A DNA stretch of 33,562 nucleotides from Alteromonadales bacterium alter-6D02 (lineage in GTDB: Bacteria; Pseudomonadota; Gammaproteobacteria; Enterobacterales; Psychrobiaceae): assembly GCA_002835545.1 (NCBI GenBank), contig PIZK01000037.1:1-33562 (forward strand). The letters are read 5' to 3'. Shown in pieces: positions 3,021 to 33,487 of this stretch. Made by a program: the position numbers and the translations under genes. Within the stretch, counting starts at the first letter, position 1, and each line of letters starts with the position of its first letter. The notes beneath the pieces were generated by a model. The model saw only the letters and a list, made by a program, of their open reading frames with translations, had not been told where the DNA came from and did not search any database.

Positions 3021-3395
3021 TTAAGCCTTAGGCTTTTTAGCACCGTACTTAGAGCGACCTTGACGACGATCAGCTACGCCAGAACAATCTAATGTTCCAC
3101 GTACTGTATGGTAACGAACACCAGGTAAATCTTTAACACGACCACCGCGGATTAAGATCACGCTATGCTCTTGTAAGTTATGACCTTCACCACCGATGTA
3201 TGAAGTTACTTCGAATCCGTTAGTTAAACGAACACGAGCAACTTTACGTAGTGCTGAGTTAGGTTTTTTAGGTGTAGTAGTATATACACGAGTACATACA
3301 CCACGACGTTGTGGACAAGCTTCTAAAGCAGGTACGTTAGTTTTTGATACCTTCTTTGTACGAGCGTTGCGCACTAGTTGATTAACTGTTGCCAT
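3021..3395 (-). CDS. rpsL: 30S ribosomal protein S12
   Basis: Decoding-centre protein, 124 residues. The loops [10 protein letters not shown] and [13 protein letters not shown] are intact; K43 and K88 (counting Met) are the residues found in streptomycin-sensitive strains, and D89, the methylthiolation site in E. coli, is present. The start ATG at 3395 has an AGGAGC site 4 nt away. It is the first gene of the str operon, with its own promoter at 3481-3509. Confidence 0.98.
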
Positions 3396-3480
3396 TATAG
3401 CTCCTAGTTAGTTGACTTCAGCCTGCTAAAAGCAGACTCATTTGGGTGAAAAATCTATCCCCAAAAAATGGGGACGCGAA

Positions 3481-3509
3481 ATTCTATGCGTAACGCGGCC
3501 ATGTGTCAA
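3481..3509 (-). promoter_or_regulatory. Promoter of the rpsL-rpsG-fusA-tuf operon
   Basis: On the minus strand, TTGACA (3504-3509), a 17-nt spacer and TAGAAT (3481-3486), followed by a GC-rich discriminator TTCGCGTCCCC. This is a near-consensus sigma70 promoter, and such a discriminator is typical of stringently controlled ribosomal promoters. The predicted start is about 78 nt upstream of rpsL. The leader opens with a short hairpin (TCCCC 3458-3462 with GGGGA 3470-3474). Confidence 0.85.
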
Positions 3510-3642
3510 GAAATAACCAATTCTGTAATGTTACGTAGTTCAAATAAAATACCTAATAGAAAACTTAGTTAGAGTCACGATATCTATCTGAACCTTATCT
3601 AACTTTCCTTTTGAAAAAAAACATGTCAGTATACTTCCTCCA

Positions 3643-3669
3643 TAAGGATTTAATAAATAAGGATTTAAT
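3643..3669 (+). repeat. Tandem 15-bp duplication carrying a Shine-Dalgarno motif
   Basis: TAAGGATTTAAT occurs at 3643-3654 and again at 3658-3669, a 15-bp period. Each copy contains AAGGA. Only the second copy (3659-3663) is correctly placed, 7 nt before the GTG at 3671; no start codon follows the first at a usable distance. Confidence 0.85.
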
Positions 3670-3670
3670 T

Positions 3671-4608
3671 GTGAGATATATTAAAACATTTACTTGCTTG
3701 CTTGCTTGCTTGCTTCATTTTCATCAACCGCCAATACTGTGATAAAAAGTAATCTCTACGGTAAGTTATTACAAACCTCTGATGATACCTTCCAGTATCA
3801 CTCTGCGAACCAACAGAAAAAAATCCTTATCAGGACAAATAGTGAATTAGAGACTACATTTATTTTCGATGATGGAAGCTTCTTTAAGATTAGCCCTAAA
3901 ACGTCACAAGTGACTCGCTACAGTAGACTCACAGGACAAACTGAGGTTCTTGCATTCGATAATTCAAGTTTGCAACAATGGACTTTAGCCTCTTCTATAC
4001 AATCTATTCACGCGAACTTTTTAGAGTTTTCAAGTGCACATCAAACACAGCCTAAGCCACAACCATTATGTGATGACCCTTTTGAAAGTGAGCATTGCGA
4101 TCGTATACAACCCGCCCCCTCTCACGAAATCTTTGATTCCCCCGAACTCACTTTATTCGACTCTAAGCCACTTTATGGTGCAAGCCAGTGTGGATATGAA
4201 AAAGATCAATACGAGATGGAGGGCTATAATGGCTTTGCGACACTAGAACGGTGTTCACGTGTCGCATCAATAGGGACAGCCGTAGCCGCCATTGGCGTCG
4301 CAGGTTCTATAGGTGGCCTTGGTGCTCCGCTAGTAGGTACATTACCAGCATATGCCCTAGCTGCAGCTAATTTAGCTGATACTAGATTCCAATGTCAAAG
4401 GGCTAGCCGAGCAGCTTATCGTACTTATACTCAGTGCTTAGAGAAGCATGAAAGCAACTCTGATAATGAAGGTTCTGGCACTGTCGGCCCAGGTAGTGCA
4501 ATCTCATCTTCCATTTGTACGAAAGTAACCCAATATAAGGTTTGCAACAAAAGCGGTGACTGTAATTATTGGACAGAATCTTCCTATACTCCGTGCATGA
4601 CTAATTAA
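3671..4608 (+). CDS. Cysteine-rich secreted protein of unknown function, probably phase-variable (currently out of frame)
   Basis: I do not recognise a family. The long open frame runs from a TTG at 3694 to 4608 (304 residues) and that TTG has no ribosome binding site. A GTG at 3671 has AAGGA 7 nt upstream, but its frame ends at a TGA at 3740 after 23 codons. Between them is a CTTG repeat tract (3693-3715). One extra CTTG, or two fewer, joins the frames and gives a signal peptide MRYIKTFTCLLACLLASFSS followed by TANT. The body (numbering from 3694) contains a beta-rich N-terminal part (16-115), an Ala/Gly-rich hydrophobic stretch (about 189-229) that could insert in a membrane, and ten cysteines from residue 126 to 301, clustered at the C-terminus, suggesting disulfides in the periplasm or outside. 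A candidate -10 TATACT (3630-3635) lacks a good -35. It is followed by a small membrane protein gene. The span 3671-4608 is not a multiple of three because of the frame break. Confidence 0.7.
3693..3715 (+). repeat. CTTG tetranucleotide tract (5.75 copies) in the signal-peptide region
   Basis: Five full CTTG units plus CTT, without interruption. The unit length is not a multiple of three, so slippage changes the reading frame of the gene at 3671-4608. In the present state the GTG frame is interrupted; six full copies would restore it. Confidence 0.95.
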
Positions 4609-4634
4609 GGTGAACCTAATATAAAAGGAAAAAT

Positions 4635-4928
4635 ATGAAAACTCCTCCATCAAATAGCTTACATGATAAACTTGTCACATTTTTTGAAAAAGTGTTTGGA
4701 CCCATTATAGCAGTCAATTTTAATAGAGCATTCTCTTTCTTATTTACAGCTATATTGATAATTATATTAACTATTTTACAAGACAATTACATATTAACTA
4801 TGATTGTTTTATATCTGTTTGGCATGATGATGATATTGGCTAATATGGTTGAGCGATACATCGAGCAGAGATTAGCGCAACTCGATTGCAAATGCCGCAC
4901 TTCAGATAAAAGCCATAATAAAGACTAG
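4635..4928 (+). CDS. Small two-helix membrane protein, unknown function
   Basis: 97 residues, no family recognised. The ATG has an AAGGAA site (4625-4630) 4 nt upstream. Two hydrophobic helices are visible, about 32-48 (FSFLFTAILIIILTIL) and 53-72 (ILTMIVLYLFGMMMILANMV), separated by a very short polar turn (QDNY), so a helical hairpin with both ends on the same side is likely. The C-terminal tail is charged and contains a CKC motif. It starts 26 bp after the cysteine-rich secreted protein gene and is probably co-transcribed with it. A partner, chaperone or immunity role is possible but is only an inference from the pairing. Confidence 0.7.
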   Translation: MKTPPSNSLHDKLVTFFEKVFGPIIAVNFNRAFSFLFTAILIIILTILQDNYILTMIVLYLFGMMMILANMVERYIEQRLAQLDCKCRTSDKSHNKD

Positions 4929-5023
4929 TTACATAGGCGCTGCATACTTCTTTACCCCTCATGCAATCGGCTCACATGTGACACTAAAATTAGTAATCAC
5001 CTTAACACTCAGTAATTAAAAAC

Positions 5024-5051
5024 AAAAAAGGCTCCCGAAGGAGCCTTTTTT
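5024..5051. terminator. Bidirectional terminator between rpoC and the plus-strand island
   Basis: Stem GGCTCC (5030-5035) and GGAGCC (5040-5045) with a four-base loop, A6 on the left and T6 on the right. Read on the minus strand it is a C(TTCG)G tetraloop followed by T6, an excellent rho-independent terminator for rpoBC. Read on the plus strand it ends the 3671-4928 pair. Confidence 0.9.
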
Positions 5052-5080
5052 CATTTAAGCATTAAGCTCAAGAGTCTTCA

Positions 5081-8000
5081 TTATAAAGCGCTATCGTCAC
5101 CTAGTGAACCTAATAGGTCCGCTAAGTTAGCTTCAGCTTCGTCAGTATCAATCTTCGTCACTTCAGGCTCTTCAGCTTTGTTACGACGATTTTGATGATA
5201 AGCGAAACCAGTACCCGCTGGAATTAAGCGACCAACGATTACGTTTTCTTTCAGACCACGTAAATCATCAGACTTACCACTTACTGCGGCTTCCGTTAGT
5301 ACACGTGTTGTTTCTTGGAACGATGCAGCTGAGATGAATGACTCAGTTGCAAGCGACGCTTTAGTGATACCCATTAGGTTACGCTCAAAACGTGCAGGCT
5401 CTTTACCCGCTTCTTCCAATTCACGGTTAGCAACTTTAACTTGAGAATACTCAAGCGTTTCGCCAACTAAGAAGTTACTGTCACCAGTGAAGGTAATAGT
5501 ACACTTACGTAGCATTTGACGAATGATTGCTTCACAGTGCTTATCATTGATTTTTACACCCTGTAGACGATAAACGTCTTGAACTTCGTTCACGATATAG
5601 TTCGCTACGTCGGTAATACCGCGCAGGCGTAAAATATCATGTGGCGACTCAGGTCCATCGGCAATAACCTCACCTTTTTCAACCTTCTCACCCTCGAACG
5701 CGTTCAGGTTACGCCACTTAGGAATCATTTCCTCATAGTGATCGCTACCATCAGCTGGAGTAATTACTAAACGACGCTTGCCTTTAGTTTCCTTACCGAA
5801 TGAAATTGTACCGCTGATTTCAGCAAGAATCGCAGGCTCTTTTGGCTTACGAGCTTCGAATAAATCGGCTACGCGAGGTAGACCACCCGTGATATCACGA
5901 GTTTTCGAGCTTTCTTGTGGAATACGCGCTAATGCATCACCAACATTTACCGTTGCACCATCTTCAAGGTTAACGATTGCGTTACCAGGTAAGAAGTAAA
6001 TAGCAGGTACTTCAGTACCAGCGATTAAGACATCATTACCTTTATCATCAACTAACTTAACAGCAGGACGCATCTCTTTACCAGCAGCAGCACGTTGTGC
6101 AGCATCAATAACAACAACAGATGATAAACCAGTTAGTTCATCTGTCTTCTTATCCATGGTAATACCATCGATTAAGTCAACGAATTGAACCTTACCTTGT
6201 ACCTCAGTAATGATTGGATGCGTATGCGGATCCCAGTTTGCTACGATTTCACCAGCAGCAACTTCAGCATCATCACCTTTCTCTAAGATAGTACCGTAAG
6301 GCACTTTATAACGCTCTTTCTCACGGCCCATTTCATCGATGATCGTTAACTCTGACGAACGAGAAACGATAACCAACTTGCCATCAACATTATCAACATG
6401 CTTAGAATTATGTAGCTTGATAGTACCTGCATTTTTAACTTGAACGTTATTTTCAGCAGAAGCTCGAGATGCTGCACCACCGATATGGAACGTACGCATC
6501 GTAAGCTGTGTACCCGGCTCACCGATTGATTGAGCAGCAACAACACCTACTGCCTCACCCATGTTAATCAAGTGACCACGTGCTAAATCACGACCGTAAC
6601 AGTTGGCACAAACACCAAAGTCTGAGTCACAAGTGATAATAGAACGTACCTTAACTTGGTCAACGGAGTTAGCTTCAAGCATGTCAACTAACGCTTCATC
6701 AAGCATTACATTACGCTCAACTAATACTTCGTCTGTTGTACCAGGCTTGATAATATCTTCCGCAACTACACGACCTAATACACGCTCGCGTAGTGGTTCA
6801 ACAACATCACCACCTTCGATTAATGGTGTCATCATTAGACCGTCTAATGTGCCACAATCTGTATCAGAGATAACTAAATCTTGTGCAACATCTACTAAAC
6901 GACGAGTTAAGTAACCCGAGTTAGCCGTCTTAAGTGCCGTATCGGCCAAACCTTTACGAGCACCGTGAGTAGAGATAAAGTACTGAAGTACGTTTAGACC
7001 TTCACGGAAGTTTGCAATGATTGGCGTTTCGATGATTGAGCCATCCGGCTTAGCCATCAGACCACGCATACCCGCTAGCTGACGAATCTGTGCAGCACTA
7101 CCACGAGCGCCCGAGTCGGCCATCATAAATACGCTGTTAAACGACGGTTGAGTCTCTTCTTCGCCATCACGGTTAATCACCGTTTCAGTCGATAAGTTGT
7201 CCATCATCGCTTTAGAAACTTTCTCGTTAGTACCAGCCCAGATATCGATCGCTTTATTATAGCGCTCACCTGCGGTTACAAGACCTTGAGAGAACTGCTC
7301 TTGAATCTCAGCAACTTCTGCTTGTGCAGCGTTGATTAGCGTTTCTTTCTCATCAGGGATTACCATGTCATCGATACCAACCGAACAACCAGAAATAGTT
7401 GCGTAGCTGAAACCGGTGTACATGAGTTGGTCAGCGAAGATAACAGTATCTTTTAAGCCAACTTCACGGTAACACGTGTTTAGTAACGTCGAGATTTGCT
7501 TTTTACCTAACGGCTTGTCTAGCAAGCTGTATGATAAGCCTTTTGGCATAATACGTGAGAATAACGCACGACCAACAGTCGTATCAGTTAGCTTAGTAGA
7601 AGCAACTAATTCACCGTTCTCGTCTTTTTGATATTCTGTAATACGTACTTTGATGCGTGCATGAAGTTCAGCAAAACCTGTACGGTAAGCTTTTTCTACT
7701 TCATCAATATCAGTGAACGCCATCGCTTCACCCTTACCATTAACACAATCACGTGTTAAGTAGTAAAGACCCAATACAACGTCCTGTGAAGGTACGATGA
7801 TCGGCTCACCATTAGCTGGTGATAGGATGTTATTCGTTGACATCATTAACGCACGTGCTTCAAGCTGAGCTTCGATAGTTAACGGTACGTGTACCGCCAT
7901 TTGGTCACCATCGAAATCGGCGTTATAAGCCGCACAAACCAATGGGTGAAGCTGAATCGCTTTACCTTCGATTAGTACTGGTTCAAACGCTTGGATACCT

Positions 8001-32417: not shown

Positions 32418-33044
32418 ATGAATGCAGTAAAAGTAACCCACCCATTAATTGAACATAAACTCGGTTTAATGCGCGAAGATGGCATTAGTACGAAACACTT
32501 TCGAGAGTTAGCTTCTGAAGTCGGTAACCTACTAACTTATGAAGCTTCGCGTGACTTTGAGTTAGAAAATAAAACAATTGAAAGTTGGAATGGTCAAATA
32601 ACCGTCCAGCAAATCGCAGGTAAGAAATTAACTGTTGTCCCTATTCTGCGCGCCGGTCTAGGCATGATGGATGGCGTGTTAACTTCTATACCTAATGCGA
32701 AAATCTCTGTTGTTGGCATGTACCGTAATGAAGAAACCCTAGAACCTGTTTTTTACTTCGAGAAGCTAGTTAAAGACATTGAACAACGCCTAGCACTTGT
32801 TGTCGATCCGATGTTAGCCACTGGAGGCTCAATGATTGCGACCATCAACCTATTAAAAGAGAGGGGCTGTACTAACATTAGAGCCTTAGTCTTAGTCGCA
32901 GCGCCGGAAGGCTTAGAAGCAATGCATAAAGCTCACCCTGACGTCACTATCTATACCGCAGCTGTTGATTCTCACCTCAATGAAGATGGATATATCTTAC
33001 CGGGTTTAGGTGATGCTGGAGACAAGATTTTTGGAACTAAATAA
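32418..33044 (+). CDS. upp: Uracil phosphoribosyltransferase
   Basis: Pyrimidine salvage: joins uracil and PRPP to give UMP. 208 residues, the same as in E. coli. The PRPP-binding motif is [23 protein letters not shown] and the C-terminal uracil-binding segment [20 protein letters not shown] are conserved. GAGGAG sits a few bases before the ATG at 32418. It stands alone: in many relatives uraA (uracil permease) follows, but here a repeat array follows instead. Confidence 0.98.
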
Positions 33045-33060
33045 ATTCCCAATCATCGCA

Positions 33061-33487
33061 AGTAACAGGCTGAGTAAGATCCCGGCTTAAAACACTACCG
33101 GGATGACAGTGATTACCTTAAAGGCGTCAATCGTCATCCTCGAGGTGGTTTCATCGAGGACCTACTACAACACGTTGCTAATTCAAGTGAGTAACAGGCT
33201 GAGTGAGATCCCGGCTTAAAACACTACCGGGATGACAGTGATTACCCTAAAGGCGTCAATTCCTCGAGGTGGTTTCATCGAGGACCTACTACAACACGCT
33301 ACTAATTCAAGTGAGTAACAGGCTGAGCAAGATCCCGGCTTAAAACACTAAGGGATGACAGTGATTACCTTAAAGGCGTCAATCGTCATCCTCGAGGTGG
33401 TTTAATCGAGGATCTCATATCACGCGCTGCCTAATTCAATGTACTACACATTGCACAAGATCCCGGCTAAAAGACTGCCGGGATGAC
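33061..33487. repeat. Tandem array of about 125-bp units with paired REP-like hairpins
   Basis: Three near-identical units start at 33061, 33190 and 33314 (periods 129 and 124; the second has a 5-bp deletion), plus a fourth partial unit with only the first hairpin (33460-33484). Each unit has hairpin A (ATCCCGG with CCGGGAT, 33079-33085 and 33098-33104 in unit 1) and hairpin B (TCCTCGA with TCGAGGA, 33137-33143 and 33154-33160), in opposite orientation (GATC...GATGAC versus GTCATC...). In unit 3 hairpin A is damaged. No coding frame, so this is a BIME-like intergenic mosaic. It fills the roughly 500 bp after upp. Confidence 0.88.

Follow-up and report, generated by a model that had tools for sequence, protein, structure and literature searches.

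A perfect CTTG repeat tract at the signal-like start of an out-of-frame, cysteine-rich ORFan gene in a member of the Psychrobiaceae: a candidate contingency locus

In the window (the whole stretch of 33,562 nucleotides that was analysed, which makes up all of contig C31), a pair of ORFan genes lies between rpoC, which converges on the pair, and rpsL, which diverges from it (Table 1). Both a housekeeping setting and a gammaproteobacterial host had been proposed from the sequence alone, and both are borne out; the host belongs to the Psychrobiaceae and is presumably marine. The first gene of the pair is preceded by a GTG start codon at 3671-3673, with the motif AAGGA at 3659-3663, 7 nt upstream. 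The frame from this GTG opens with MRYIKTFTCLLACLL, traverses the CTTG tract, and ends at TGA 3740-3742. The gene frame runs from a TTG at 3694 to the stop codon at 4606-4608 (304 codons, 296 of them beyond the tract); upstream, TAA 3682-3684 closes it. With the number of copies in the assembly, the start and the gene are out of frame, the GTG being in frame 2 (mod 3) and the gene in frame 1. Since the repeat unit of 4 nt is not a multiple of three and the tract lies between the translation start and the gene body, the copy number sets the frame. A further ATG, at 3623, is in frame with the GTG and, by eye, has no ribosome binding site; by eye, none was found either for the gene-frame starts TTG 3694 and TTG 3706 in the repeat and GTG 3739. 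The AAGGA motif at 3659-3663 is the probable ribosome binding site of the GTG. A 15-nt sequence is duplicated in tandem here (3642-3656 and 3657-3671, alike at 13 of 15 positions), and the motif lies within the second copy. This duplication, which doubles the AAGGA motif, could slip too. Every coordinate of the original prediction was rechecked and holds, namely the GTG, the AAGGA at 7 nt, the 5.75 CTTG copies, and the stop at 3740, and so do its frame arithmetic for joining the start to the gene and its placing of the beginning of the 304-codon frame at a TTG in the tract that lacks a ribosome binding site.

Table 1. Features of the locus, in window coordinates.
Feature	Positions	Strand	Basis
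15-nt tandem duplication, ATAAGGATTTAATAA / ATAAGGATTTAATTG, with two AAGGA motifs	3642..3671	+	read from sequence
Short GTG frame, reads MRYIKTFTCLLACLLHFHQPPIL and then TGA; putative signal-peptide start broken within the tract	3671..3742	+	sequence, translation
CTTG repeat tract, 5.75 perfect copies	3693..3715	+	repeat counts, genome search, simulations
Gene frame, open from the tract TTG onwards, with 296 codons beyond the tract; cysteine-rich ORFan, presumably exported	3694..4608	+	ORF list, codon score, homology searches
GTGA, gene-frame GTG 3739-3741 overlapping short-frame TGA 3740-3742; possible restart point	3739..3742	+	sequence
97-aa ORFan with hydrophobic segments (by eye)	4635..4928	+	ORF list, homology and family searches
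Terminator-like stem-loop, 12 pairs with T-rich tail, between the ORFan pair and converging rpoC	5024..5051	-	stem-loop scan

The second ORFan starts 26 nt downstream of the first and is probably carried on the same transcript. Its codon score (0.039) is below those of all 143 sampled ORFs, no homologue was found in 393 other genomes of the order, and its matches in Pfam and NCBIfam are only far below the cut-offs, with none in PHROGs. It could be a partner of an exported protein, for example a membrane anchor or an immunity-type protein. A promoter scan of 3380-5090 gave no plus-strand promoter-like site in 3380-3670; over the whole scanned region it gave 7 sites vs 5.1 in shuffles, which says little. 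The gap between rpoC and rpsL (window 3396-5080) holds different genes in the relatives L015 (4847-8487), L017 (4637-8280), and L019 (3192-8051): two of them carry frames of 728, 199, and 141 aa, and another carries a frame that looks by eye like a reverse transcriptase. In L018 and L020, no rpoC tail was detected in the roughly 8.6 and 10 kb, respectively, nearest to rpsL; two of the nine genomes compared had no rpsL match, and the contig of L016 was too short to tell. Overall, it seems that this site varies in gene content within the genus.

At the other end of the window, a unit of 124 nt is repeated 3.4 times at 33061-33487, at the contig end, after a frame at 32418-33044 that resembles upp by eye. 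The first 120 bases of this unit have 23 matches in the genome, four of them in the window, and many of these cover only about 30 nt including a palindrome. Since several matches lie near contig ends (C1, C45, C6), a dispersed REP-like family may have broken the assembly.

The CTTG tract is real and exceptional, and lies far outside chance. CTTG x4 occurs in the window as two overlapping matches at one place, whereas 0.00 were expected from 100 shuffles of the window, and this place is the single site of CTTG x4 in the whole genome of 3,992,016 bases. The tract is also the sole perfect period-4 tract of at least 14 nt in a sample of 376,280 bases (9.4% of the genome), composed of the window and 342,718 further bases, which came from the first 20 kb or less of the contigs C1-C20. 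In 20 simulated genomes of the same size and the same first-order base make-up, the longest period-4 tract was 19 nt, vs 23 nt here. These shuffles, searches, and simulations agree with the original prediction, in which the tract was described as uninterrupted CTTG copies at a contingency locus. Elsewhere, the sampled part of the genome has few such repeats and, since it holds no second tract of this kind, the genome does not look like one with many such loci.

Among 388 genomes of the order, the present one included, CTTG x5 or more was found in 23, vs 2 of 388 for the reversed control. The 22 other tracts, one per genome, were compared with the present one, and all but one of them (21 of 22) exceed 5.75 copies. 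Half (11 of 22) precede a frame of at least 90 codons on the CAAG strand, and nine of these eleven lie no more than 17 open codons from the 5' edge of a CAAG-strand frame that has at least 200 codons after the tract. Ten of the 22 precede no frame of at least 90 codons on either strand, so the presence of a tract does not by itself show a switch. The only one of the 22 with a CTTG-strand frame of at least 90 codons is L021, with 12.25 copies before 285 open codons; it was rejected as a parallel, as its flanks are unlike a signal peptide. L025 and L034 were also translated and likewise set aside, as their long frames are on the CAAG strand. Of the tracts compared, no other combines a signal-like core of CTTG with a long frame downstream. 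CTTG x4 also occurs in at least 120 stretches of viral_contigs.

The gene body is a candidate coding sequence. The 296 codons after the tract contain no stop, for which the chance is about 7e-9 in one random frame. Of all six frames, the gene frame alone has a codon score above zero, at 0.100 bits per codon. This score is low, with just 2 of 143 sampled ORFs below it; the seven codons upstream of the tract score -0.165, and they are too few to weigh. Ten of the 296 residues are cysteines, and 3 of 179 sampled ORFs match or exceed this proportion; such a content would suit an exported, disulphide-bonded protein. In the translation, the second half of the protein contains a glycine- and alanine-rich hydrophobic stretch. 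The downstream frame is thus cysteine-rich and free of further lesions.

No relative of the 296-aa protein was found in 393 other genomes of the order, including eight other genomes of the genus, in 368 other genomes of the class (a few of which are also in the order set), in the plasmids and viral_contigs, or in genome_contigs, where the search detects close relatives only. With E values of up to 1 allowed, it matched no family in Pfam, NCBIfam, or PHROGs. The best sequence match in the PDB (E 0.14) is not meaningful, and a structure predicted without an alignment (mean pLDDT 44.9, pTM 0.26) was not used.

The N-terminus encoded from the GTG, MRYIK, carries two positive residues and is followed by a hydrophobic stretch with a best 9-residue mean of 2.68. 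In the gene frame, a hydrophobic stretch (2.59) is followed by SFSSTA-NT, a plausible cleavage site with the small residues SSTA before NT. The features of a Sec-type signal (positive N-terminus, core, and small residues) fit when the two pieces are read apart, but the core is made by the repeat. A crude signal rule was passed by the GTG frame, as well as by 35 of 179 sampled ORFs, and was failed by the product that starts at the TTG in the tract. These results accord with a signal-like N-terminus, as had been proposed for the codons before the tract. However, CTTG reads Leu-Leu-Ala-Cys (LLAC), which is hydrophobic, in all three frames; therefore, the tract resembles a signal core wherever it is placed, and the signal-like hydrophobicity is owed partly to the repeat itself. 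What would argue for export is the N-terminus, together with the cysteines and the end that resembles a cleavage site.

It appears reasonably likely that the locus is a simple-sequence contingency locus which was assembled out of frame, and the original interpretation is probably right in kind. This reading draws on a tract beyond chance, a ribosome binding site with a signal-like start, an open cysteine-rich frame, and published parallels. Strand slippage at the tract during replication would add or remove whole copies. Roughly a third of the possible copy numbers would join the start to the gene and give an exported protein, while the remaining two classes would end at TGA 3740 or TAA 3750, with little product or none; the assembled copy number belongs to the class that ends at TGA 3740. 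Since the repeat encodes LLAC in every frame, any joined state would retain a hydrophobic signal core, which would lengthen by four residues per three repeat units. Counting against a switch, the tract is short, the codon scores of the gene and of its neighbour are low, and the 376 kb sampled hold no second tract.

A different history, though an unlikely one, is that of a young pseudogene, in which an ORFan that once worked was thrown out of frame at the repeat and has begun to decay, so that the tract would be a scar and there would be no switch. The frame is indeed broken in the sole known copy, no homologue shows purifying selection, and the gene ranks low among the sampled ORFs by codon score. 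However, no second lesion is present across the 296 codons, and the break coincides exactly with the one long period-4 tract that the sampled sequence contains, as a reversible slip would have it. It is less probable still that the copy number is in error, the true genome being in frame and the present count having come from the assembly or from a minority of the culture. Short tandem tracts are error-prone in some sequencing, and the assembly is fragmented into 45 contigs; yet the completeness of the genome is rated at 100% and its contamination at 0%, a tract of 23 nt would be easily spanned by short reads, if short reads were used, and the tract would be slip-prone even if its count were wrong.

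Two further explanations involve events in translation. In one, which is given only a slight chance, ribosomes that terminate at TGA 3742 of the short frame would start again at GTG 3739, making a signal-less mature protein in the cytoplasm, and the in-frame states would export it. If this were true, the repeat would set three states of one gene (exported, cytoplasmic, and little or none). The GTGA overlap is in the correct frame and sits two codons beyond the supposed cleavage site between STA and NT. However, by eye there is no ribosome binding site before GTG 3739, a disulphide-type protein may misfold in the cytoplasm, and any TGA that follows A, G, or T gives such an overlap in that frame, so that it could well be due to chance. 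The overlap nevertheless bears on the OFF state which had been assigned to the assembly: the out-of-frame assembly stands, but the overlap, which the original prediction had not noted, means that the present state need not be fully OFF. In the other explanation, ribosomal frameshifting, for example a -1 slip on TTT 3719-3721, would join the frames with no change in the DNA. The gene frame is the -1 frame and a run of four T permits perfect re-pairing, but no classical X_XXY_YYZ slippery heptamer is seen by eye, single-codon ribosomal slips are rare, and the CTTG tract would be left unexplained; this mechanism is regarded as very improbable.

Most known switches that are driven by repeats come from host-adapted pathogens and commensals. 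If the contingency-locus reading is true, an isolated switch in a probably marine host, with almost no such repeats in its sampled genome and on a gene for which no relative was found, would suggest that a single contingency locus can arise along with a new gene. With the repeat doubling as the hydrophobic core of the signal, every in-frame state would keep an export signal. The locus is moderately interesting for its host, for its ORFan gene, and for a repeat that would serve as the signal core.

Close precedents have been published. In Histophilus somni, a 79-bp AAGC tract gave subpopulations of +1 and -1 unit in a single-colony culture (PMC6889271). In Neisseria, the autB report describes AAGC repeats within the DNA of the signal sequence, with 2-10 copies among 102 meningococcal isolates, of which one was in phase, and its authors expect less frequent switching with fewer repeats (PMC5118866). 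Slippage at copy numbers this low is therefore documented in another bacterium, though not at the present locus. The repeat of autB and autA (Neisseria, Haemophilus) is of the same class as the present one, since AAGC is CTTG on the other strand, rotated. The coding strand is the opposite one, however, so that the AAGC strand encodes Q/A/S/K and CTTG here encodes L/A/C; and autB encodes an autotransporter and is known to vary among isolates (PMC5118866), whereas the present gene is an unrelated ORFan. Membership in the autA/autB autotransporters was considered for the 296-aa protein and rejected, given that neither Pfam nor NCBIfam yielded a match with an E value of 1 or less. In the opa genes of Neisseria gonorrhoeae, the published account places CTCTT repeats in the leader sequence and reports switching at about 1e-3 per cell per generation (PMC3745409). 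The opa repeat is a pentamer present in many gene copies and the one described here is a tetramer in a single ORFan; in both, the repeat lies in DNA that encodes a leader peptide (PMC3745409), or here a signal-like one, and has a unit that is not a multiple of three, so that changes in copy number would turn the frame on or off.
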